In this document: one piece after another, positions 1,502 to 58,542 of the stretch
How positions within the stretch are numbered: the first letter of the stretch is position 1
Layout: each line of letters begins with the position of its first letter
NCBI GenBank assembly: GCA_945939115.1
Contig: CAMEVC010000003.1
Location: 124,001 to 188,000, forward strand
DNA from: an uncultured Eubacterium sp.
GTDB taxonomy: Bacteria; Bacillota; Clostridia; Lachnospirales; Lachnospiraceae
Length of the DNA stretch: 64,000 nt
Reading direction: 5' to 3'
Made by a program: the position numbers and the translations under genes
The notes under the pieces: model-generated
Databases searched by the model: none
What the model saw: only the letters and a program-made list of their open reading frames with translations
What the model was told of the DNA's origin: nothing

Positions 1502-4500
1502 CTACTCTTCGTCTTTTATATTTGTTCTCTCCGTCATGTTATGTATAATTTCCTTCAAAAGCAGCGGTAAAAATGGCTTGGTAATAAAATCGTCACACCC
1601 CAGTTCTCCATATTCAGTTGACGTGTCAAGAGTCTTATCAGCCGTCATCAGAACAACCGGAGTCTGATATTTCTTACGGATAAGTCGAAGCGTTTCCAGT
1701 CCATCCATTTCAGGCATATTGACATCCAGCAAAATCAAGTCGAAAGTCTGCTGTTCAATAATTTCCAATGCCTGTTTTCCGCTACTGGCAGGGATTATTT
1801 CATACATTGGTTCTTCCTTCATGATATGCGCAATAATCCTGTTATTCATAGCCTCATCATCTACAGCCAGAATTCTCTTATGAGTGAATTCTTCCTGTTT
1901 TAGTTTATAATCCATATCTTCATCAATCATTTGAAGCATTATATCTGCAACTTCAGGGTCAAACTGTGTTCCTCTTCCCTTTACAATCTCATTCCTTACA
2001 ACTTCCTGAGGCAATGCATTACGATAGCTTCGATTGCTGGTCATTGCGTCATATGCATCCGCAATTCCAAGAATTCTTGCCACCTCCGGAATCTTTTCCC
2101 CAATAAGGCCATTCGGATATCCCTTTCCATCATATCTTTCATGATGATATTTGGCTGCAATGGCAATCATCTCACTACCTGCAATTCCTCTTAAAATATG
2201 ATATCCTGTTACCGGGTGTATTTTCATTATATTATATTCTTCATCTGTCAGTTTTCCAGGTTTATTAATAATCTCATTTGGGATACGAATTTTACCAACA
2301 TCATGTAATAATCCGGCCCGGTAAATTAATTCCTGTTCTTCCTTGTTTTTTCCCATTCTGGCAGCAATCATGCGTGAATATTCAGCAACTCTCTTTGAAT
2401 GTCCACTGGTATACCTGTCCTTCGCATCCACCGCTTCACTCAGTGCAGTAACTGTCTGTATATACAGTTCTTTTATCGTCTGCTGTTTCCGTACCAGCTC
2501 TCCCGTCTGCTCTTTTACCTTTTGTTCAAGTTCAATCTGGAGCTTTTCCAGTTCATACTTTCTTGTAATAAACAGAATCATGATTACAATGCTTATAATC
2601 GTAAACAAAAAGATTTCTGTACAAACAAGTACAAGATATGTCTTGTACCCTGTTTTTTCCCACATCTGCTTTTCTTTGCTGATGGTGTATTCTGTCTCCT
2701 GAAGAATATTTTCGCCTGAAGCGTCAAGTATCTGCAGACAGACATGATATTCTGACAAATCTGGCTTATAAAGCCTGATTGATTCCATTTCATCCCATCT
2801 GCATACCTTTGGGTTATCTTCTATTTCTTTTATGTAGAAACGCACCTTCACCTCTTCAAATGCATAATTTTTTACCGAAGCATATATTGAAAGATTTTTA
2901 GTGTTGGAAGGTACTACAAAGTTCTTACCGTCTTGCGATTTAATTTCTTTACCATCACATTCAAAGGATACAATTCCATATTTCATGTCCGCAGCAGTAT
3001 TCTCAACGCGGTTATTATAGACTATTACGCCGCTATTACTGCACAGATAAAGACTTCCGTCTTCTGAAATATAATTCCATGAATTAGCAGTAAGCCCTGA
3101 GAACAGGCCTGTTCCCGCGCCATAATACCTGAGCTGCTCATAATTATCCTCGCACAGCTTTGACAACTGTACCTCATACAGTCCTGCACTACAGGTTACA
3201 TATGCTGTTTCGCCATTAATAATAACATCATAATTATTGAAGTATGGAAAACTCTCAAGTCTTCTTATTGTTCCATCCATGTCAACATGGCACAATGCAT
3301 TACTTGTTACAATAAAATATCCATCTCCATGAGGTACAATTCTTAAAATAATATTTGAAGACAGTCCATCCTCAACAGTGTAGTTTTTTATTAATTTACC
3401 TTCTGATATGACATAAATTCCACTGCCGTCACTTCCTGCCCAGACTGTCCCATCAATTCCTTCAACAATAGACAGAATCTGGGTATTAGCAAATCCATCC
3501 TCTGTATCAAAAGTTGCTGTAACCTTGCCATTTTTAATAAAGTTAATTCCATCTGCTGTTCCTGCTGCTATAGTTCCATCTGACAACTGAGTTATACAAC
3601 GGAATCTCTCACTGGTAATGTTATGTGATTGCATCCGGAAAGAACTGATTCCATCCTGCTTATCGTAACAGAACAGTCCGCTGTATGTACATATCCATAA
3701 CCTGTCTTCTAAATCTTTATAAAATGAACGAACCCTGTAACCCTTCACAGTTTCTGAAGCAATATTTGACTTTAAGGTAAGATTATCTCCATCCAGAATC
3801 TTAATTCCGTCATCCATTGCGCAGTAATAATCGCCATCAAAATATTCCACCGCATTTACATACGCCTTCTCAATGCCGGCTTTCTCAAATAAATTGACAA
3901 AAGTACTTTCTGAGAGTTTCATTACGCCATAGTGGCTTGAAGCCACCCAGATATTTCCCTGATAATCCTCATGGAAACTTACAATGGAAGAATCAAATCC
4001 ATCATAATGCATCTTATGATAAGTTCCGTTTGAATCAATATACCCAAAGTCCGAATTCAGTGCTACCCATAAACGTTTTCTGCTATCCTCAAATACAGCT
4101 GAAATCTGATTACCCGGAATATCTATCTGTTCTTTAACAGAAACTGTATGTTCTGAAATATCAGCTATAAACAGTTCTCCCGTTTCAGTTCCTGCTATCA
4201 GCCCCTTAGAAGTTGATGCCAGGCAATAATAAAACTTATCTTTTGTCTTACTATTGTCTATTTCCGCCTGTGTACTGCAATTAACCGCATGAATTTCACC
4301 CTTATTATCAACTATAATAAGCATATCCTGATATACTTCCATTGCTTTTGCAAAGGTAATGTTGACGTCTAATATCTGAATGGTATCATCCGTATTAAAT
4401 CTGCATATCTTATCACTTGTGCCCACATAGACATTTCCCTTTTCATCTTCTGCAAAACAGCGTACAGAATCAGAAGGGAGTCCATCATCACTGGTGAAAT

Positions 4501-5407
4501 ATGTGTATTCTCCATTCTCGTATCTTGCAATTCCCGCATCGTTTGTGCCTATCCAGAGCCTTCCACTGCTGTCTGTCATCATACCGACAACATTGACGAG
4601 TCCGCCTTCACGCACGAATTCAAAGTCTTTTCCATTATATCTGGTAAGACCTGCATAACTTCCTATCCATATATATCCGTCATTAGTTTCACATATAGCA
4701 TTGGCCTCAGATGATACCATACCGTTTTTACTGTCATATATATTTTCAACAAAATTATCAACAAACAGATTATCTTCTTCTGCCTGTACATTCGCCGGAT
4801 TAATTATAAATGCAGACGCTATTCCAACAACAAGAAGCGTCGCAATATTCTGTTTAATATTACATTTTTTCTTCTTGATACTGCCAAGAAGACAGATAAC
4901 AAGATATGCCGCCAGCACTGTAATCTGCTTGTCTACAATTTCCACAACAGTCTCTCCTGCAAGTGCAGCTAATACATCAGGAAAATCATACCATCTCAGC
5001 ATATCCACAAGAGTATCTCCCCATACATTTCCGGAATACCCATTATAAAATATAAGATTCAGAGGAGTTGAGACAACTGTACAGATTAATCCAATCCAGA
5101 AACTTGACACAACCGCTTTCAACAAATTGTTCATATAACCTTTTTTTATGAAAAAATTTAAAAGAAATGCTACTACCATACTTATCAGCATATAAACCAA
5201 TGCAGTCCTATCATAAAAACTTAAAATTAGATTATTAGAAACCCCTGCAATCAAGCCGCCCCATAATCCTACATAGTAGGCTGCAAGAATAGTCCCCATC
5301 ATGTCAAACCATATTGGAAGCCCAAGCCAGCTTGCTATTATCCTTCCAACAACATTTAATAAAATTCCACAAATAACAATTATGCCTTTTCTTACCGTAT
5401 CTTTCAA
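1502..5407 (-). CDS. Membrane sensor: ECF-S-like domain, regulator propeller, HD-GYP phosphodiesterase and receiver
   Basis: A 1301-residue protein that probably senses an external signal and hydrolyses cyclic di-GMP. Residues ~1-190 form several membrane helices with an ECF-transporter S-component-like pattern (LPIWFDMMGTILAAYYVG). A second hydrophobic segment ends near residue 210 at a signal-peptide-like NVQA. Residues ~215-780 hold repeated two-component-regulator propeller motifs (IWIGSYAGLTRYNGK, LWIGTNDAGIARYENG, VWAGSDGSGIYVI). A Y_Y_Y-like beta domain follows, then a membrane helix near 930-950 and a short coiled coil. HD-GYP residues are intact at ~985-1165 (LLHDVGK, IHPVTGYH, HHERYDGKGYPNGL, ADAYDAMTS). 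A receiver domain ends the protein (LLLDVNMPEMDG-type site, Asp ~1228, and TKPF). The start is TTG behind GAGGTGA. The HD-GYP-REC half is paralogous to the 343-aa protein near 53 kb. Confidence 0.9.
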   Translation of the reverse strand: MKDTVRKGIIVICGILLNVVGRIIASWLGLPIWFDMMGTILAAYYVGLWGGLIAGVSNNLILSFYDRTALVYMLISMVVAFLLNFFIKKGYMNNLLKAVVSSFWIGLICTVVSTPLNLIFYNGYSGNVWGDTLVDMLRWYDFPDVLAALAGETVVEIVDKQITVLAAYLVICLLGSIKKKKCNIKQNIATLLVVGIASAFIINPANVQAEEDNLFVDNFVENIYDSKNGMVSSEANAICETNDGYIWIGSYAGLTRYNGKDFEFVREGGLVNVVGMMTDSSGRLWIGTNDAGIARYENGEYTYFTSDDGLPSDSVRCFAEDEKGNVYVGTSDKICRFNTDDTIQILDVNITFAKAMEVYQDMLIIVDNKGEIHAVNCSTQAEIDNSKTKDKFYYCLASTSKGLIAGTETGELFIADISEHTVSVKEQIDIPGNQISAVFEDSRKRLWVALNSDFGYIDSNGTYHKMHYDGFDSSIVSFHEDYQGNIWVASSHYGVMKLSESTFVNLFEKAGIEKAYVNAVEYFDGDYYCAMDDGIKILDGDNLTLKSNIASETVKGYRVRSFYKDLEDRLWICTYSGLFCYDKQDGISSFRMQSHNITSERFRCITQLSDGTIAAGTADGINFIKNGKVTATFDTEDGFANTQILSIVEGIDGTVWAGSDGSGIYVISEGKLIKNYTVEDGLSSNIILRIVPHGDGYFIVTSNALCHVDMDGTIRRLESFPYFNNYDVIINGETAYVTCSAGLYEVQLSKLCEDNYEQLRYYGAGTGLFSGLTANSWNYISEDGSLYLCSNSGVIVYNNRVENTAADMKYGIVSFECDGKEIKSQDGKNFVVPSNTKNLSIYASVKNYAFEEVKVRFYIKEIEDNPKVCRWDEMESIRLYKPDLSEYHVCLQILDASGENILQETEYTISKEKQMWEKTGYKTYLVLVCTEIFLFTIISIVIMILFITRKYELEKLQIELEQKVKEQTGELVRKQQTIKELYIQTVTALSEAVDAKDRYTSGHSKRVAEYSRMIAARMGKNKEEQELIYRAGLLHDVGKIRIPNEIINKPGKLTDEEYNIMKIHPVTGYHILRGIAGSEMIAIAAKYHHERYDGKGYPNGLIGEKIPEVARILGIADAYDAMTSNRSYRNALPQEVVRNEIVKGRGTQFDPEVADIMLQMIDEDMDYKLKQEEFTHKRILAVDDEAMNNRIIAHIMKEEPMYEIIPASSGKQALEIIEQQTFDLILLDVNMPEMDGLETLRLIRKKYQTPVVLMTADKTLDTSTEYGELGCDDFITKPFLPLLLKEIIHNMTERTNIKDEE

Positions 5408-49927: not shown

Positions 49928-52705
49928 TCACAATATATTGCGAAGCTTGTTCAGAAGACTTTGATATTGTTCCATGACAGATTTATGATTATCCTTAATA
50001 TAATCCATTTTCTCATCTTTACCTGCAAACTCCAATGCCTTGGCGGACTCCGATAAAGAAACTGCACCTATTGTCAATGATGTACTTTTCAATGCATGCA
50101 CGGCTGTAATATAATTCTTCCAGTCCTGTGCTGCAAAAAGCTGGTCAATTGCTTCTACATTATCTGCCTTTATGTATTCATAAAGCATCTCTTGATATAT
50201 TTCTTCATCCATACAGTATTTTAGTCCTGTCTGTACATCCAGTTCGGGCATTTCCTTCAGGCACTGTAAAACATTCCTGTCTTTGCCAGACTGTGAATCC
50301 ACTGGATTACTATTTACCTGTGCATCAAGCTTACTATGATCTGCATCCGGCTTACTGTATAAATTCACATCAAGATACTTCTTCAGCATAGCCTGTAAAG
50401 ACTCTTCCTTAACAGGCTTTGTAAGGTAATCGGTAAATCCTGCATTAATATATTCCTGTCTGGCACCTCTTGTTGCATTAGCTGTAAGCATAATGACAGG
50501 CGTACTTTTATTTAGATTATCTGACATAATCTTCATCTGCTGCAATGTCTCCAAGCCATCCATCTCAGGCATCATATGATCTAAGAATATTATGTCATAG
50601 TGATTTTTCTTTACACTTTGCAGACATTCCATACCGCTTCTTACTGTATCAATCTGGATGCGTGTCTTTTTAAGAAGGCCTTTTATTACCTTAAGATTAA
50701 TCTCCACATCATCCACAACGAGAATATGTGCATCTGGTGCAACAATGGAATTTTCTTTGCTTTCTGAAATATTAACTGACTGTTGATACCTCTTCTTAAA
50801 ATCTCCTACCGGCTTAGAATCAACTACCTTTTGTGGTATCTTCGCTGTGAATTCAGACCCCTTTCCATATTCACTCTGAACTCCAATTTCTCCTCCCATC
50901 AGGCAGACAAGATTCTGGGTAAGCTTTAATCCAAGACCTGTTCCCTCAATACTCCTGTTTCGCTTCTCCTCAATTCTTGTGAAAGAATTAAAAAGCTTGT
51001 CCATATCTTGCTCACGAATACCGATTCCTGTATCCTTCACTGTAATTATCAATACAATCTGGTTTCCTTCGAATCGTTCGTATCCCACCAAGAGCCTGAC
51101 TTCTCCTTCTTTTGTGTATTTCACAGCATTTGAAAGTAAATTGTTTATAATCTGTCTTATGCGCACATCGTCCCCAACAAGAGTAGATGGCAGTTTTGGG
51201 TCAACATCAATCTTCAAGGAAAGAGATTTGCTCTCTGCTCTTACCTTGGCAATATTAAAACAGTCATTAATAACTGAACTCGGTTTATATTCAACCGGCA
51301 TAATTTCCAGTTTTCCCGCCTCAATTTTAGATATATCCAAAATATCATTGATAATAGACAGCAATGACTGACCAGCGCTTTGTATATTCTCTGCATACTC
51401 TCTTAGGTTATCATCCTTACACTCCTCTAACAGTATTGAATCCATTCCCAGAATTCCATTAAGAGGTGTACGGATTTCATGTGACATATTTGCAAGGAAC
51501 TGGCTTTTTGCTACATTTGCCGCTATGGCATCGTTCTTTGCCTTCTCAACAAATTTCACATGCTCCTTCATCATATTACGCATATAGATAATCAAGGTAC
51601 ATATTGCGAAAATGCATACTCCATACCTGCTGGCTTTTCCTAAATCTCCGACTTTAATTATATAGGACCTCATTACATCAATAAATACACCTATCATCAT
51701 GCATATAATACCGATAAAACTTATAGCTGTCTCAAGACTCTTCTCAATATGTACATTCCTTCCCAATGCGACAACATTTACTATTATTATTAAAACAATA
51801 ATCGCATGTGACACAAACGCCATCTCCATAAAATCCATTATTCCGGCAATCTGTAAAATAAGTTGAACCGCAACATTTACTGAAGAAATCAGCATTACCC
51901 CCAGCATAATATTGCCAATTTTCGGAATTGACTCATAACAATAAGCCTCCAGAAACAGAGGTGCAGTCATCAGAATAATAAATATGAGGTTGGAATACAG
52001 AGTCTGGTTTCCATAAAATACTTCAGGAATCTTTGTTTCTATCATATGGTATACACTCATAAGAAGGAGATATATACCAAGATACTGCACACCACCTATA
52101 TTCTTGTTAGACATTTTCTGTATTATTGCAAGTATTATGAAAATAACAGCGGCAATCAGTATGATAACTGACAGAATAATATCCAGTGCCCTTTCCTTTA
52201 TGAAATTAAGAATTGAAACATCTCTTCTGGCAACAGATATATCTGTTATGTATGTTGCATAGTCAGCATATGGTGAACACATCTCTATCTGTATCTCCCC
52301 CACCTGACATTCACTAGGTATATCTGCAAAAACAAATACACTGCCTGGCGTATTTCCAAATAATCTTTTATCATTTAATCCAAAGCTGTATATCTCTTCC
52401 CCATCTACCATAATTCTCAAAGATTTATCCGCAGACAGGAATCTTATAGTCTTTCCCCAATATTCCTTTGGGATTGTATTTTTTATGACGATTTTCTCCC
52501 CCGGCCGGCTGCTGCTGTTGTAAGGCAGTTCCTCCAGCTCGGTCTGGCTTCCATCTTCCCTTACAAGAACCCAACCTGTGTTAAATGATTGCATTTTCCC
52601 TTTTGCAAGAGTCATGTCATCCACTTTAGAAGTTGTAAGTACAACTGTAATTACGACTAATTGTATAAAAAATACTATCCATATAAATTTATCATACTTC
52701 TTCAT
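49928..52705 (-). CDS. Hybrid histidine kinase: 7TM-DISM sensor, HisKA, HATPase, REC, HPt
   Basis: 925 residues. An N-terminal anchor and an extracellular beta-sandwich (~40-165: IRFLSADKSLRIMVDGEEIYS) precede seven membrane helices (~165-385), the 7TMR-DISM layout. Next come HisKA (FLANMSHEIRTPLNG), HATPase (LLSNAVKYTKEG, KDTGIGI, GTGLGLKLT), a receiver (VVDDVEINLKV, FLDHMMPEMDG, TKPV) and a C-terminal HPt with AVHALKSTSLTIG. It carries a full phosphorelay in one chain. It is the last gene of the BMP/kinase/HD-GYP operon. Confidence 0.93.
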   Translation of the reverse strand: MKKYDKFIWIVFFIQLVVITVVLTTSKVDDMTLAKGKMQSFNTGWVLVREDGSQTELEELPYNSSSRPGEKIVIKNTIPKEYWGKTIRFLSADKSLRIMVDGEEIYSFGLNDKRLFGNTPGSVFVFADIPSECQVGEIQIEMCSPYADYATYITDISVARRDVSILNFIKERALDIILSVIILIAAVIFIILAIIQKMSNKNIGGVQYLGIYLLLMSVYHMIETKIPEVFYGNQTLYSNLIFIILMTAPLFLEAYCYESIPKIGNIMLGVMLISSVNVAVQLILQIAGIMDFMEMAFVSHAIIVLIIIVNVVALGRNVHIEKSLETAISFIGIICMMIGVFIDVMRSYIIKVGDLGKASRYGVCIFAICTLIIYMRNMMKEHVKFVEKAKNDAIAANVAKSQFLANMSHEIRTPLNGILGMDSILLEECKDDNLREYAENIQSAGQSLLSIINDILDISKIEAGKLEIMPVEYKPSSVINDCFNIAKVRAESKSLSLKIDVDPKLPSTLVGDDVRIRQIINNLLSNAVKYTKEGEVRLLVGYERFEGNQIVLIITVKDTGIGIREQDMDKLFNSFTRIEEKRNRSIEGTGLGLKLTQNLVCLMGGEIGVQSEYGKGSEFTAKIPQKVVDSKPVGDFKKRYQQSVNISESKENSIVAPDAHILVVDDVEINLKVIKGLLKKTRIQIDTVRSGMECLQSVKKNHYDIIFLDHMMPEMDGLETLQQMKIMSDNLNKSTPVIMLTANATRGARQEYINAGFTDYLTKPVKEESLQAMLKKYLDVNLYSKPDADHSKLDAQVNSNPVDSQSGKDRNVLQCLKEMPELDVQTGLKYCMDEEIYQEMLYEYIKADNVEAIDQLFAAQDWKNYITAVHALKSTSLTIGAVSLSESAKALEFAGKDEKMDYIKDNHKSVMEQYQSLLNKLRNIL

Positions 52706-52742
52706 TGTATATTATGCCTCTTTTCTCGCTATATGATGACTC

Positions 52743-53774
52743 CTACATACTTCCCAGACTGTTAATAATACCATGTACTGTTTCTTTTACTACAAATGGA
52801 TGTAATGGCTTTGTTAAATAATCATCTATCCCCAGTTCACTTATTTTCTGAATTGTCTCAATACCCTTATCCGCCGTCACAATTACAACAGGTATATCAT
52901 ACTTTTCACGTATCAACTTATATAAGTCGAATCCATCAATATCCGGCATCTTTAAATCCAATAGTATCAGATGAATCTCATTCTCTTCTAATACACGGAA
53001 GGTCTCATCCTTGGTCTTTGCTCCTATCACACAGATATCCGGAACATCCTTTAGAATATGTTCTGCCATCCTTATATTCATTATCTCATCATCAACTACA
53101 AGAACATTCTTCATTGTATTATCTGTCTGTCGCATTGAATAACTGCTGTCCTCATCAATCATCTGCAGCATAATATCTGCAATATCTGCATCAAACTGTT
53201 TCCCTCGTCCCTTTACAATCTCCGAGCGGACAACCTCCTGTGGCAGTGCTTTTCTATAGCTTCGATTACTTGCCATTGCGTCATATGCATCTGCAACGCC
53301 AATAATTCTGGCAATTTCCGGAATATTTTCGCCTTCCAGCCCATTAGGATAGCCTGTACCGTCATACCTTTCATGATGGAACTTAGCTGCGTAAGCAATT
53401 CTGTCATCCTCATGAATGTCTTTTAAAATGTGGTATCCACAGACAGTATGAATTCTAATCTGGTCAAACTCTTCCTCGGTAAGCTTACCCGGCTTGTTGA
53501 TTACCTCTTCCGGAACACGTATTTTCCCGACATCGTGAAGAAGACCTGCATAATATATAATCTTCTGTTCATCCTCGGATTTACCCATCCTCTTGGCAAT
53601 GGCTAATGAATAGTCTGCCACTCTTTGAGAATGGCCGCTTGTATATCGGTCCTTCGCATCAATAGTGTATGCAAGTGCACGGATAATATTGGTATTCATC
53701 TGATTAAGGCGTGTTCTGCTTTCTTCATCATTGCACTGGAAATTGTTGAGCATTTTAGAAATAATATTATTCAT
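52743..53774 (-). CDS. HD-GYP phosphodiesterase with C-terminal receiver domain
   Basis: 343 residues, cytoplasmic. After about 30 residues comes an HD-GYP domain with all motifs (KDRYTSGHSQRVADYS, LLHDVGKIRVP, IHTVCGYH, HHERYDGTGYPNGL, ADAYDAMAS), then a receiver (VLVVDDEIMNIRM, LILLDLKMPDIDG, VTADKG, LTKPLHP). The common order in bacteria is REC then HD-GYP; here it is reversed, as in the C-terminal half of the 1301-aa sensor. It should degrade cyclic di-GMP under control of the neighbouring hybrid kinases. It lies between the two kinase genes, 37 and 80 bases from them. Confidence 0.93.
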   Translation of the reverse strand: MNNIISKMLNNFQCNDEESRTRLNQMNTNIIRALAYTIDAKDRYTSGHSQRVADYSLAIAKRMGKSEDEQKIIYYAGLLHDVGKIRVPEEVINKPGKLTEEEFDQIRIHTVCGYHILKDIHEDDRIAYAAKFHHERYDGTGYPNGLEGENIPEIARIIGVADAYDAMASNRSYRKALPQEVVRSEIVKGRGKQFDADIADIMLQMIDEDSSYSMRQTDNTMKNVLVVDDEIMNIRMAEHILKDVPDICVIGAKTKDETFRVLEENEIHLILLDLKMPDIDGFDLYKLIREKYDIPVVIVTADKGIETIQKISELGIDDYLTKPLHPFVVKETVHGIINSLGSM

Positions 53775-53854
53775 ATGTGTTATCCTTTCGTTACGGTTTC
53801 AACGAGTTCCTCATATCCCATGTCCCAGTATTATCAGTCAATTAGCAACCCGCT

Positions 53855-56365
53855 TTATCCGGTGATAATTGTCTTGGCAGCATCAATAGTATCCTTGTAC
53901 ATATTCATGACACCATCATGGTGTTCTCTGATAAATGTTATATTATCATCAACATTGTCTGATGCCTGAATCGCCTTTCCTGCATATTCCAGCTCCTTTG
54001 CTGCCTCTGAAAGACGTTCTCCTCCAATATTAAGTGAAGTTGATTTTAATCCGTGAACATAAACTGTATAATTCTTCCAATCTTCTGACTTATAGGCTTC
54101 TGTTATATTCGTTAAATGTTCTTCGTAACCGTCACAGTATAGTTGCAGCATTTCCATGTAGAATTCCATACTGCCGGCACAATATTTTATCCCTGTTTCC
54201 TTATTAATAAGTAGTTCCCTGCTTTCCGACATATCTTCACCTTTATCTTTCCTGCCATTATCCTCCTGCATAAGATTTATCTTATCTTGGGATATATATC
54301 TTGACAACATTATTTCTAGTTCTTTTCCCTCAACAGGCTTTGAGAGATAATCTGCAAATCCTGCTTTAATATATTCTTCTTTTGCCCCTGCAATCGCATT
54401 AGCCGTCAATGCAATAACAGGTGTAGCCTGACATTTATTTACGGACTGCCTCATATTGTTAAGAGTCTCTATTCCGTCCATTTCCGGCATCATATGGTCA
54501 AGCAGTATTACATCAAAATACTCTCTTTTCACAATGTTAAGACATTCAGCACCACTCATGCATGTCGTAATCTTCACATTGGTCTTCTTCAGGAGAGCCT
54601 TGACTACTGCCAGATTCATCTCATTGTCATCTACTACAAGAACCTTGGCATCTGGCGCAACAAAGCTTTCCTTGTAAGTATCTTCCTGCTCTGCCATATT
54701 TTCAAACCTTCTCTTAAAGTCTCCCATTGGCTTGCTGTCTTTTATTTCTTGTTTAAGATAAACAGTAAAAACAGACCCCTTTCCATACTCACTGGAAACA
54801 TCCATGCGTCCATCCATCTGTTCAATAAGCTTATGGGTAATTGCTAATCCAAGGCCTGTTCCCTCAATGTTGCGGTTCTGTTCCAGATCCAGTCTCCTGA
54901 AATCATCAAAAAGCTTGTTAAGGTCTTCCTCTCTTATTCCGATTCCACTGTCAGACACCTGCATTTTCAGGGTAAATTCATTGTTTTCTCTTATACCTTC
55001 TACAAGAAACTTTACCATTCCATTTTTCGTGTATTTCACCGCATTATTGAGAATATTAACAATTATCTGACGGTTACGCACTTCATCTCCGCATAATGTG
55101 GATGGAAGTTCCCTGTCAATCTCAACCTGAAAATCAAGCTGTTTCTGCCTTGCCTTAATTTCCGTCATATTCACAACATCATTCAGGAATAATGCAACAT
55201 CATAAGGTGCATTGACAATCTCCATCTTACCTGCTTCTATCTTAGAAAAGTCTAGTATATCATTAATCAGAGATAATAATGTCTTGCTTGCGCTCTGGAT
55301 ACTGACAGCATACTCACGTATATTCTTATCATTGCTCTCTCTAAGCACCATCTCATTCATTCCCATGATGGCATTAATCGGGGTACGGATTTCATGTGAC
55401 ATATTTGCAAGAAAATCACTCTTGGCACGGTTGGCATGCTCTGCTACTTTTTTAGCTTCTCTGAGCTCATCGCTCTCTTTTACTTTCTCTTCCGCACTGA
55501 GCAGATATATCATACCTATTACAAACAGGACTATCATTAATCCAAACACCCATAATATCAGCGTTGTAACAGTTTCAATATCTGTCATCACAACTTCCCT
55601 TGGCACAGTTCCCATAAGGGATATTCCAAGCTGTTTAACTTCCGCAACAAATAAGAAACTTCCTTCATCCCCGTCTTTATAATATACTGCTGCGGCCGTG
55701 TCTATGTTCATCTTCTCTGCCAACTGAGTCAATGCATTTTTTACAGAGGACTTTCCCATAAAATCATTTGTATCCGACTTAGAATCTGAAAAAGGAACTA
55801 CAACCTGACCTGTCTTGTCAATAACAGCTACCTCTGCTTTTCCACCATAACAGGTTAAACCGAAATTATCAACCAGAATGCTCTCATCATAAAGCTTGTA
55901 CAAAGTATACCGTACATTTTCTCCATCATAAATAGGTGTAGTAAAAAGGATTCCTTTTCCCTCTTTATAACACACTGATGAATTACCTCTGAAGGCATTC
56001 TGTATTCCTGAAAAATCCGAGAATTCCAGAGGATTTCCAACAATTGCTGTGCCGTCAAGACACAGTATTCCCATTGTTACATTCTCACTGTCCCGGATGA
56101 CAGAATTAATAATAACTGAATCCTTGTTAACATCAGAAGTTATATTTCCTGCAATGCTTTCCAGATTATGTATCTCCAGTTCAAACTGCTCTGCCGAAAG
56201 CATAGCAAGAGTCTTTGCCTGTTGTGATACCTGCTTCTCCACATAGCTTTGAAGAAGGCTTCTAAGACGGAAGTTCATCAAGATACCAACAACACTCATT
56301 ATCACAATTACAACAGCCAGAAATATGGTTACTCTGCCTTTTCTACTAAGACCTTTACTCTTCAT
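53855..56365 (-). CDS. Hybrid histidine kinase: extracellular sensor (Cache-like), HisKA, HATPase, REC, HPt
   Basis: 836 residues. One membrane helix near the N-terminus, an extracellular domain of about 230 residues (CLDGTAIVGNPLEFSDFSG, GILFTTPIYDGENVRYTLYK; Cache-like), a second helix (TLILWVFGLMIVLFVIGMIYLL), HisKA (FLANMSHEIRTPINA), HATPase (ILNNAVKYTKNG, GTGLGLAIT), receiver (VVDDNEMNLAV, LLDHMMPEMDG) and C-terminal HPt (VHGLKSTSLNIG). Its core is clearly paralogous to the 925-aa kinase. Its start overlaps the end of the upstream BMP gene by 11 bases, which points to a functional link with that binding protein. Confidence 0.93.
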   Translation of the reverse strand: MKSKGLSRKGRVTIFLAVVIVIMSVVGILMNFRLRSLLQSYVEKQVSQQAKTLAMLSAEQFELEIHNLESIAGNITSDVNKDSVIINSVIRDSENVTMGILCLDGTAIVGNPLEFSDFSGIQNAFRGNSSVCYKEGKGILFTTPIYDGENVRYTLYKLYDESILVDNFGLTCYGGKAEVAVIDKTGQVVVPFSDSKSDTNDFMGKSSVKNALTQLAEKMNIDTAAAVYYKDGDEGSFLFVAEVKQLGISLMGTVPREVVMTDIETVTTLILWVFGLMIVLFVIGMIYLLSAEEKVKESDELREAKKVAEHANRAKSDFLANMSHEIRTPINAIMGMNEMVLRESNDKNIREYAVSIQSASKTLLSLINDILDFSKIEAGKMEIVNAPYDVALFLNDVVNMTEIKARQKQLDFQVEIDRELPSTLCGDEVRNRQIIVNILNNAVKYTKNGMVKFLVEGIRENNEFTLKMQVSDSGIGIREEDLNKLFDDFRRLDLEQNRNIEGTGLGLAITHKLIEQMDGRMDVSSEYGKGSVFTVYLKQEIKDSKPMGDFKRRFENMAEQEDTYKESFVAPDAKVLVVDDNEMNLAVVKALLKKTNVKITTCMSGAECLNIVKREYFDVILLDHMMPEMDGIETLNNMRQSVNKCQATPVIALTANAIAGAKEEYIKAGFADYLSKPVEGKELEIMLSRYISQDKINLMQEDNGRKDKGEDMSESRELLINKETGIKYCAGSMEFYMEMLQLYCDGYEEHLTNITEAYKSEDWKNYTVYVHGLKSTSLNIGGERLSEAAKELEYAGKAIQASDNVDDNITFIREHHDGVMNMYKDTIDAAKTIITG

Positions 56366-57455
56366 AAAATTCTACACCCTCAACATACCAGTCAAAATGT
56401 TCCAAAAGTACCTCATCTCGAATAGTCTGATTATCTTTACAGCGAAGTCTGCCCTCGTTGTCATATATGACCCCAGAAAATACATCCTGTCCGCTTAGTA
56501 TTCTCTGTGTAGCCTTACTTACCTCTTCTCTCGTCTTTTCTGTTACAAGCGGTGAAAAGTCTGTCAGTTTTACAGCATTTTCCTCCATACCAACCCAGTG
56601 CACCTTAATATCGGGTGAGTCTCCTCTGAGATACTGTCTGATAATTGCCTCGTATGTTAATTTCCAGTCACACACTACAGCAGTGAGATACTTTTCCGAA
56701 CAGTTCTCCAGACCCTGATGGTATCCGATTGAAAAAATACCATATCTTTCTGCTTCTTCTGCCACATATGTCTGGTTCTGATGATATGTAATAACATCCA
56801 CCCCTGTATTATTAATCAGATTATCTGTCTGTTTTCTCTCTTCTGTCTCATTATCCCATGAATTGCTCCACGCAACTGTCACAACTGCATCAGGATTAAC
56901 CTGTCGTACGCCTAGTGTAAAAGCACTGATTCCCCGGTTGACCTCACTGGTAGGCATAGCAGCAACATAACCTATCTTGTTAGTCTTGGTCTGCATTCCG
57001 GCAACAATTCCTGCCAGATAACGTGCCTGGTACATCCTTGAAAAATATGAAGTCACATTATCTGCATGAAAATTAAAGGAATTCGAATAGAATGACACCT
57101 CCGGGTACTTTGCAATAATATCCGCTGCTTCTTCGGCATAGCCAAAGCTTGTAAGAATAATCATTTTGCATCCCTTTTTTACAAGCTCCTCAATTGCCGG
57201 ACCGCATTCTCCCTGAAATTCTTTAACATTTTCCTTAACAATAAGTTCTGCTCCCAGCTCCTTACATGCAGCAGAAACGCCCTCATAATGTATACCATTC
57301 CAGCCCTTTTCATCCACAGAACCTGTTATGATAAACCCTATCTTCTCTCTCTCCTTATGTGACCTCCCGGCAAATAACAGTGCTGAAATTATCACAGCTG
57401 TCAGAAGTACAATTATTATTAGTAAAAATCCCCTTTTTCTCTTATTCAGAACCAT
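56355..57455 (-). CDS. BMP/PnrA-like extracellular binding protein, N-terminally anchored (second copy)
   Basis: 366 residues. A basic N-terminus and one helix (GFLLIIIVLLTAVIISALLFA) lack a lipobox cysteine, so the protein is probably membrane-tethered without a lipid. The rest is a two-lobed type I binding fold: FIITGSVDEKGWNGIHYEG, MIILTSFGYAEEAADI, NKIGYVAAMPTSEVNRGISAFTLG, DVITYHQNQTYVAEEAE. The BMP family includes nucleoside-binding lipoproteins (PnrA, BmpA). No ABC transporter genes are nearby, so a sensory rather than transport role is inferred. It overlaps both neighbours (14 and 11 bases). Confidence 0.88.
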   Translation of the reverse strand: MVLNKRKRGFLLIIIVLLTAVIISALLFAGRSHKEREKIGFIITGSVDEKGWNGIHYEGVSAACKELGAELIVKENVKEFQGECGPAIEELVKKGCKMIILTSFGYAEEAADIIAKYPEVSFYSNSFNFHADNVTSYFSRMYQARYLAGIVAGMQTKTNKIGYVAAMPTSEVNRGISAFTLGVRQVNPDAVVTVAWSNSWDNETEERKQTDNLINNTGVDVITYHQNQTYVAEEAERYGIFSIGYHQGLENCSEKYLTAVVCDWKLTYEAIIRQYLRGDSPDIKVHWVGMEENAVKLTDFSPLVTEKTREEVSKATQRILSGQDVFSGVIYDNEGRLRCKDNQTIRDEVLLEHFDWYVEGVEFYEE

Positions 57456-58542
57456 CTGTGATTACTCCTTCCACATACCAGAAAAAATTATTAAGCATGG
57501 CTGCATCTGTCATGCTCTGCCCTTCTTTGACGCGCACATTTCCCTCGTTATCTGTAATTGGTCCATAAAACACATCAAAAGTTCCATCCATAAGACGGGA
57601 GCGCGCTTCTTCCACTTTTTCTGCTATTCCCGGCTTCACATTATCTGTTAACGGTGCCAAATCTACTATGTCGGTTTCAACACCTTCCCAATAATAAATA
57701 CCTTCAAACCTTCCCTGAAGGCATTCAAGAATTCTAGGTTCGTAAAAACATTCCCAGTTCCATACCGGTGCAGTCAGATATGTATCCGGAAATCTATCAC
57801 TGTTGTCCAGATTATATCCAATGGACCATATTCCGTACTGGTCAGCAATCTCCAACGGAGATGATGCATCTGTATGCATAGCAATAACATCTATATTATG
57901 CTCCTGTATCAATTCTGTAGTAGCCTCAGCATTCTCTTCTTCCCCAGTCCAGGAATCGCTCCATTTCACATATACCTTTGCCTCAGGATTCACTGAGCGC
58001 ACACCTAAAGTAAACGCATTTATTCCTCTGTTAACCTCGGCAATAGGAAATGATGCAACATATCCAATTTCATTAGTTTCTGTCTGCATTCCGGCTACAA
58101 TACCACTAAGATATCTCATCTGGTATATTCTTCCAAAATATGTGGCAAGATTGTCTAACTGTTCCACTCCTGTGGCATGAAAAAAATATATTTCCGGATG
58201 GTCCTTTGCACATTCCAGTTCCCATGTGCCATAGCCAAATGAATTGCAGATTAAAATCTTGCAGCCATCTTTTATTAACTCCTCCATAACATCTCTGGAA
58301 GAATCATCCTCAGGAACATTTTCCCGGTATATTACATTCAGATTCAATTCCTCTGCGCTTTTTTCCATGCCGATATAATGCGATTCTCCCCAACTGTTGT
58401 CATCTACTGTACCGTTAAGAATAAAGCCTACCTTTGTCTGTGTCTTTGTTATATCCGTTTCCTGCTGATTAATATGAATCCAGAATATTCCCGCAACAAT
58501 AACACAGGCAAAAGTTATTATTATTATTAATATCTTCTTCAT
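57442..58542 (-). CDS. BMP/PnrA-like extracellular binding protein, N-terminally anchored (first copy)
   Basis: 366 residues, the same length and plan as its downstream paralogue: an anchor helix (KILIIIITFACVIVAGIFWI), then FILNGTVDDNSWGESHYIGM, ILICNSFGYGTWELECA, NEIGYVASFPIAEVNRGINAFTLG and IDVIAMHTDASSPLEIAD. The cysteine in the anchor is not in a convincing lipobox (ITFAC). Binding-site residues differ between the two copies, suggesting different ligands. It is first of the five-gene signalling operon, with AGAGGAG before the ATG. Confidence 0.88.
   Translation of the reverse strand: MKKILIIIITFACVIVAGIFWIHINQQETDITKTQTKVGFILNGTVDDNSWGESHYIGMEKSAEELNLNVIYRENVPEDDSSRDVMEELIKDGCKILICNSFGYGTWELECAKDHPEIYFFHATGVEQLDNLATYFGRIYQMRYLSGIVAGMQTETNEIGYVASFPIAEVNRGINAFTLGVRSVNPEAKVYVKWSDSWTGEEENAEATTELIQEHNIDVIAMHTDASSPLEIADQYGIWSIGYNLDNSDRFPDTYLTAPVWNWECFYEPRILECLQGRFEGIYYWEGVETDIVDLAPLTDNVKPGIAEKVEEARSRLMDGTFDVFYGPITDNEGNVRVKEGQSMTDAAMLNNFFWYVEGVITDGSE

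Follow-up and report, generated by a model that had tools for sequence, protein, structure and literature searches.

An open reading frame (ORF) encoding a 1301-residue protein was analyzed in a 64,000-nucleotide stretch (the window) of contig CAMEVC010000003.1 from an uncultured Eubacterium sp. of the Lachnospiraceae (the host family). The protein starts with a membrane domain resembling the S-components of energy-coupling factor (ECF) transporters and continues with a regulator-propeller receptor ending in HD-GYP and receiver (REC) domains. We judge it somewhat better than an even chance that the ORF makes a sensor derived from a transporter, together with a propeller receptor, as one precursor, which is cleaved and whose two parts jointly control the breakdown of cyclic di-GMP (c-di-GMP). 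The original prediction had placed a 1301-residue chain with an ECF-S-like N-terminus, a secretion-like segment, propeller repeats, a Y_Y_Y-like domain, a membrane helix, HD-GYP, and REC at 1502–5407. All of these were present at those coordinates on the minus strand, which had been unstated; the plus-strand reading of 1502–5407 was full of stops.

In the proposed mechanism, the S-component-like domain (S-domain) would bind a ligand without importing it, because it keeps an outward ligand pocket and lacks the helix-1 surface presumed to dock on EcfT. Residues 178–209 would act as a signal peptide for export of both propellers and the Y_Y_Y domain. The most likely cut by signal peptidase I would be after A209, so that the S-domain would become its own membrane subunit next to a double-propeller receptor of conventional type, which would cross the membrane once and carry the HD-GYP c-di-GMP phosphodiesterase and the receiver domain. 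A ligand on the S-domain and/or the propeller, together with REC phosphorylation by a hybrid kinase, would set the rate of c-di-GMP breakdown. The S-domain ligand would likely be nucleoside-like and sensed in the membrane.

The S-domain and its origin

No Pfam match was obtained for residues 1–190 at E<1 in the whole-protein scan. Pfam alone was too insensitive for the N-terminus, and profiles of relatives and NCBIfam were used instead. The NCBIfam model NF045596 (ECF_S_CD3073, CD3073 family putative ECF S-component) matched residues 13–173 (E=1.8e-20) and all 65 aligned relatives, and PF12822 matched 53 of the 65 relatives weakly. The relatives' profile found FolT-type and RibU S-components as its best, though weak, hits among PDB sequences. 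The AlphaFold2 (AF2) model of the domain, made with 65 sequences, showed six membrane helices with a mean predicted local distance difference test score (pLDDT) of 94.4. All credible Foldseek matches in the PDB were S-components (ThiT, RibU; probability 0.97–1.00, template modelling score 0.48–0.66), with E-values of 0.08–0.6, so that the structural support is at the level of the fold. An unrelated membrane fold was ruled out by the fold and the profile, and both indicate that residues 1–177 are truly S-component-like, as originally proposed.

The fused domain was up to 38% identical to S-components of complete ECF operons (38% to L052). Its closest stand-alone relatives (group S1) lay in complete ECF operons, ordered S-T-A or S-T-A-A', in 12/12 loci. 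In the unrooted S-domain tree, the propeller-fused domains formed one clade (98/91), sister to S1 (100/100), and the Cache-fused domains formed a separate clade near other S-components. The receptor label required two changes on the tree (with L043 counted as fused); one shared capture event behind all the receptor types was disfavoured, not formally rejected (approximately unbiased test, p-AU 0.054). We infer a transporter-to-receptor direction because the receptors occupy two places among transporters in this tree. The best explanation of the sequence relationships is that residues 1–177 descend from CD3073-type S-components or share an immediate ancestor with them.

An exact set of nine residues (W33, D35, Y72, N117, N127, W129, G130, D159, and K160) occurred in 16/16 S1 proteins, 36/45 propeller-fused domains, 0/10 other S-components, and 0/16 Cache-fused domains. 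The nine residues map to loops L1 and L5 and to helices, with several positioned towards the outer half, which is the substrate-binding region of S-components (PMC11109136), and this signature is regarded as a putative ligand pocket. The pattern was different for residues 12 and 16 of helix 1, which we equate with the AxxxA motif of PMC11109136. Small residues occupied both positions in 16/16 S1 proteins and 9/10 other S-components, compared with 5/45 propeller-fused and 1/16 Cache-fused domains. The window domain carries I12 and L16 in place of the small-xxx-small motif presumed to serve EcfT docking. Keeping the putative pocket while losing the helix-1 motif is what one would predict if a transport subunit had become a sensor.

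EcfT or EcfA genes were absent from the window locus, and EcfT matches were found elsewhere in the genome, including a CbiQ-type EcfT adjoining ECF-like ATPase genes. The released S-domain might then be a working transport subunit on this housekeeping ECF module, sharing only an mRNA with a separate propeller receptor. The retained pocket, and the absence of a stand-alone member of the S-family from the genome at the threshold used, fit this proposal. We regard it as improbable, as the helix-1 motif was present in 25/26 stand-alone proteins and only 5/45 propeller-fused ones, and the extra seventh transmembrane helix (TM7) would remain attached.

The internal signal peptide and the receptor behind it

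The secretion-like segment of the original prediction was confirmed and redefined as an internal signal peptide. Across relatives, the S-domain/propeller junction comprised a K/R-rich stretch, a short hydrophobic core, and a c-region; the window junction (KKKK...VQA↓EED) has the basic n-region, hydrophobic core, and small residues at −3 and −1 of signal peptidase I substrates. The site [AVSTGIC]-x-A followed by polar residues was conserved in 41/44 distinct homologous junctions. It occurred in 48/354 (14%) internal helices of polytopic proteins used as controls, in 5/15 Cache-type junctions, and in 2/13 later (second) membrane helices of the same proteins. V, S, or A was favoured at −3, A at −1, and P at −6/−7. 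The mean identity of the stretch before the site was only 12%, yet the K-rich n-region and Leu/Ala core were kept. An earlier shuffled-tail test (43/44 junctions versus a mean of 30 and a maximum of 37 in 200 shuffles) was less sharp because the tails are Ala-rich, and the controls were therefore taken from real membrane helices. AF2 confidence was low (26–47) around the predicted cleavage site, where the linker is disordered.

Host-family propeller proteins without the S-domain start with a standard signal peptide at the corresponding position (L017; L156–L175), and an N-in/C-in S-domain in front gives the correct topology for signal peptidase I. Because of this topology, these relatives, and the junction profile, cleavage after A209 is expected, probably separating the S-domain from the receptor. 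The Bradyrhizobium cytochrome b/c1 precursor FbcH is reportedly cleaved internally in a similar manner. In L043, an in-frame TAG lies within the internal signal peptide (912–914) with an ATG right after it, splitting the S-domain and propeller frames. Separate S-domain and propeller genes were rejected for this locus, where the TAG interrupts a single frame; it comes from a single draft contig and was not used as evidence.

A rather unlikely alternative is an uncut receptor with TM7 as a non-cleaved anchor and with direct gating of the phosphodiesterase by both the S-domain and the propeller. It would agree with the maintenance of one ORF in dozens of genera and with the related Cache-type proteins, which hold the S-domain through an ordinary membrane helix; the −3/−1 profile in 41/44 junctions, the disordered linker there, and the normal signal peptides of the S-domain-less relatives argue against it. 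The original prediction had described ligand-gated c-di-GMP hydrolysis in one chain. An S-domain ligand feeding into HD-GYP is still the best reading, whereas the one gated chain is replaced by what are probably two polypeptides.

Pfam identified five Reg_prop stretches (7.7e-27), HD_5 at residues 989–1153 (2e-38), and Response_reg at 1179–1288 (1.2e-26) in the whole protein, and PHROGs gave no match. The AF2 model of residues 1–1172 (pLDDT 78.5) showed two propellers, an Ig-like domain, a long transmembrane helix, and HD-GYP, and residues 219–912 matched the double-propeller ectodomains of BT4663, BT3049, and BT4673 (E 1e-30 to 1e-34). The Y_Y_Y domain scored below threshold in the window protein and was recognized in relatives (L072 and L017, PF07495); the window region folds like the corresponding ectodomain part of BT4663, which supports the original assignment. 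The protein thus has the tandem Reg_prop propellers, outer Y_Y_Y domain, and single membrane helix of a regulator-propeller receptor, with HD-GYP-REC in place of a histidine kinase output. The HD-GYP domain matched the structure 4mcw, and its HD and HHExxDGxGYP motifs were intact, so it appears from sequence to be a c-di-GMP phosphodiesterase. The host genome contained 16 GGDEF matches, and therefore a c-di-GMP network exists in the host.

Table 1. Layout of the ORF and its domains in the window
Feature	Position	Strand	Description and evidence
Whole ORF	1502..5407	minus (5407 to 1502)	1301 aa; TTG start; GAGGTGA ribosome-binding site ~6 nt upstream of start
S-component-fold domain, six membrane helices, N-in/C-in	4877..5407	minus	residues 1–177; NF045596, AF2, Foldseek
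Predicted internal signal peptide	4781..4876	minus	residues 178–209; KKKK n-region, hydrophobic core, P204, V207-Q-A209 site before EED
Two beta-propellers (Reg_prop)	3008..4753	minus	residues ~219–800; Pfam, AF2, BT4663/BT3049 ectodomains E~1e-33
Y_Y_Y-like Ig domain	2672..2992	minus	residues ~806–912; AF2 strands, BT4663 alignment, PF07495 in relatives
Membrane helix, out to in, then coiled coil to ~990	2567..2638	minus	residues 924–947; sequence, AF2 helix 919–996
HD-GYP domain, predicted phosphodiesterase	1949..2443	minus	residues 989–1153; HDVGK (1035), HHERYDGKGYP (1088), Pfam, 4mcw match
Receiver domain (REC)	1544..1873	minus	residues 1179–1288; Pfam

Distribution, neighbouring genes, and candidate ligand

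The S-domain profile matched 106/299 sampled host-family genomes. The domain order, for which a search had been proposed, was recurrent in the family (~42/299 genomes, counted by the open-frame length of the S-domain profile matches), and a rare one-off architecture was ruled out by these counts. An assembly artefact was likewise ruled out because the same in-frame order recurs across dozens of genera. Outside the host family, propeller-sized frames were found only in two genomes (L112 and L114), both from one further family in the order, and none were seen elsewhere in the class sample. Named records among the relatives were Lachnospiraceae, Butyrivibrio, and a metagenome-assembled genome labelled Thermoflexaceae.

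Four kinds of S-domain carriers were observed: stand-alone proteins (~200 aa), fusions to propeller and HD-GYP with or without REC (~1200–1300 aa), fusions to propeller, kinase, REC, and Hpt (~1500–1620 aa), and fusions to a Cache-like region and HD-GYP or kinase (~570–1440 aa; "Cache-like" is a reading of the sequence, as Pfam names only the HD part). At 10/10 fetched loci (L156–L165), an S-domain-Cache-HD-GYP gene directly preceded a gene for signal peptide-propeller-kinase-REC; these loci were chosen since the two matches were near each other, and they confirm the pairing and give no frequency. The S-domain, propeller, and HD-GYP travel together as one ORF and as neighbours, given the fused ORFs and these adjacent genes. 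Downstream of the pair there was often a ~255-aa protein resembling REC-bearing proteins beside other members. Beside kinase forms, two small proteins (L077:10718–11188 and L073:1461–2006) start with a long Asp/Leu repeat (DLDLDLDFDLDDLDLGL...), followed in L077 by a receiver-like stretch. At L110:8431–9783, a REC-GGDEF gene, of opposite c-di-GMP activity, lies 6 bp downstream of a propeller-fused protein in which no HD-GYP motif was recognised.

The S1 ECF operons contained genes for a nucleoside phosphorylase (8/12 loci), an HTH_11+3H regulator of the NiaR type (5/12), an isochorismatase (4/12; nicotinamidase superfamily), and a PfkB kinase (2/12). Linking these operons to NAD precursors relies on what is known of the protein families. 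These operon partners suggest that the S1 substrate is a nucleoside, possibly nicotinamide riboside. The orphan ECF family NF045596 at these loci (L052–L063) is a candidate nucleoside or nicotinamide riboside importer. The sole S1 operon without nucleoside genes (L059:2142–5624) lies ~600 bp downstream of apparent riboflavin synthesis genes, as read from the sequence.

Next to the receptors, a Bmp/PnrA-like lipoprotein gene was directly downstream of REC-less propeller-HD-GYP genes in 15/18 loci, among them the host genome's second copy (L002). The nearest solved relatives of the lipoprotein were 3s99 and AtzT, the latter crystallised with bound guanine (PMC6834077). A hybrid histidine kinase gene was directly upstream of the other REC-bearing members in 5/5 cases. 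Elsewhere in the window (49931–58542, minus), there is a cluster of two hybrid kinases (HK-REC-Hpt), two PnrA-like Bmp lipoproteins, and one HD-GYP-REC protein 58% identical to the output part of the ORF. The neighbourhoods suggest that the S-domain ligand is a nucleoside-like compound and not a sugar. The original interpretation was partly supported overall: its vitamin-like ligand would stand if the compound is nicotinamide-riboside-like, and no evidence was found for its sugar on the propeller.

The S-domain may instead be a membrane, dimerisation, or targeting module without ligand binding, leaving sensing to the propeller and its Bmp partner. This would accord with an ectodomain of the known BT4663 type and with the Bmp genes beside most REC-less members. 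We find it quite unlikely because the nine-residue signature was selectively retained as the helix-1 motif diverged. We favour the cleaved sensor and receptor, and extend this tentatively to a polyprotein sensory system. In it, a captured S-component would be translated in frame with its receptor and freed by signal peptidase, so that the two are produced 1:1 and jointly control c-di-GMP on sensing a nucleoside or nicotinamide-riboside-like vitamin. Cache-HD-GYP proteins would represent separate captures, paired in operons with propeller kinases.

Several points weigh against the cleaved sensor and receptor. The window domain scored 73 bits with NF045596, below the curated cut-off of 180. The presumed docking role of the helix-1 motif is derived from PMC11109136 and conservation, and the fused domain has G151 where S-components have D151, so the ligand may have changed. 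At the junction, the rows are related and p-values (Fisher p 2e-27 for homologous junctions against internal helices) overstate independence. Ala at −1 partly defined the site, leaving the control comparison and the other positions as independent, and the comparison set of N-terminal signal peptides was small and impure (5/17). The window locus has a YibE/F gene upstream and lacks the Bmp and kinase neighbours.

Comparison with known systems

S-component-fold receptors have been described earlier, with the relationship between transporters and receptors left unresolved (PMC11109136). In the open-access papers searched, no account was found of an S-domain with a propeller of the hybrid two-component sensor (HTCS) type, of the conserved internal signal peptide, or of the sequence link to one ECF operon family, and nothing relevant was found on CD3073, on regulator propellers with HD-GYP or c-di-GMP, or on internal signal peptides. 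The domain order is recurrent, yet no description of it was found in those papers; its parts are known, and the combination is apparently a previously unreported instance of a transporter component repurposed as a sensor. The transporter-receptor link is visible in sequence as a receptor clade sister to an operonic S-component clade, with the pocket kept and the helix-1 motif lost, and the transporter-to-receptor question thereby becomes directly testable. The results also propose a ligand, both for an orphan ECF family and for a family of receptors present in about one-seventh of the sampled genomes of a gut and rumen family, and suggest that a bacterial ORF can be made to yield two membrane proteins by an internal signal peptide.

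The 5TMR-LYT sensor kinases (LytS, YpdA, and BtsS; PF07694) have the S-component fold (PMC11109136) and likewise represent its recruitment for sensing with loss of the helix-1 motif. The window domain differs in having no N-terminal H0 helix (H1 starts at residue 2) and no NxR in residues 20–45, in resembling S-components at the sequence level, and in being followed by an extracellular propeller receptor. PF07694 gave no match to it at E<0.1, and 32/65 relatives matched weakly. Membership in 5TMR was ruled out by the absence of these defining features (PF07694, H0, and NxR). The CD3073-family S-components (NF045596) share its sequence family and six-helix fold, and the WDYNNWGDK signature is common to the operonic sister clade; the window domain, in contrast, is fused to a signal peptide and receptor, has lost the helix-1 motif, and has no adjoining EcfT or EcfA genes.

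The Bacteroides hybrid two-component sensors BT4663, BT3049, and BT4673 likewise have a signal peptide, two propellers, a Y_Y_Y/Ig domain, and a single membrane helix, whereas the window protein has an S-domain in front and an HD-GYP-REC output instead of a kinase-regulator, kinase forms being found among its relatives. The HD-GYP domain shares the fold and catalytic motifs of c-di-GMP phosphodiesterases (4mcw), from which it differs in that REC is C-terminal of HD-GYP and a membrane receptor would drive the output.

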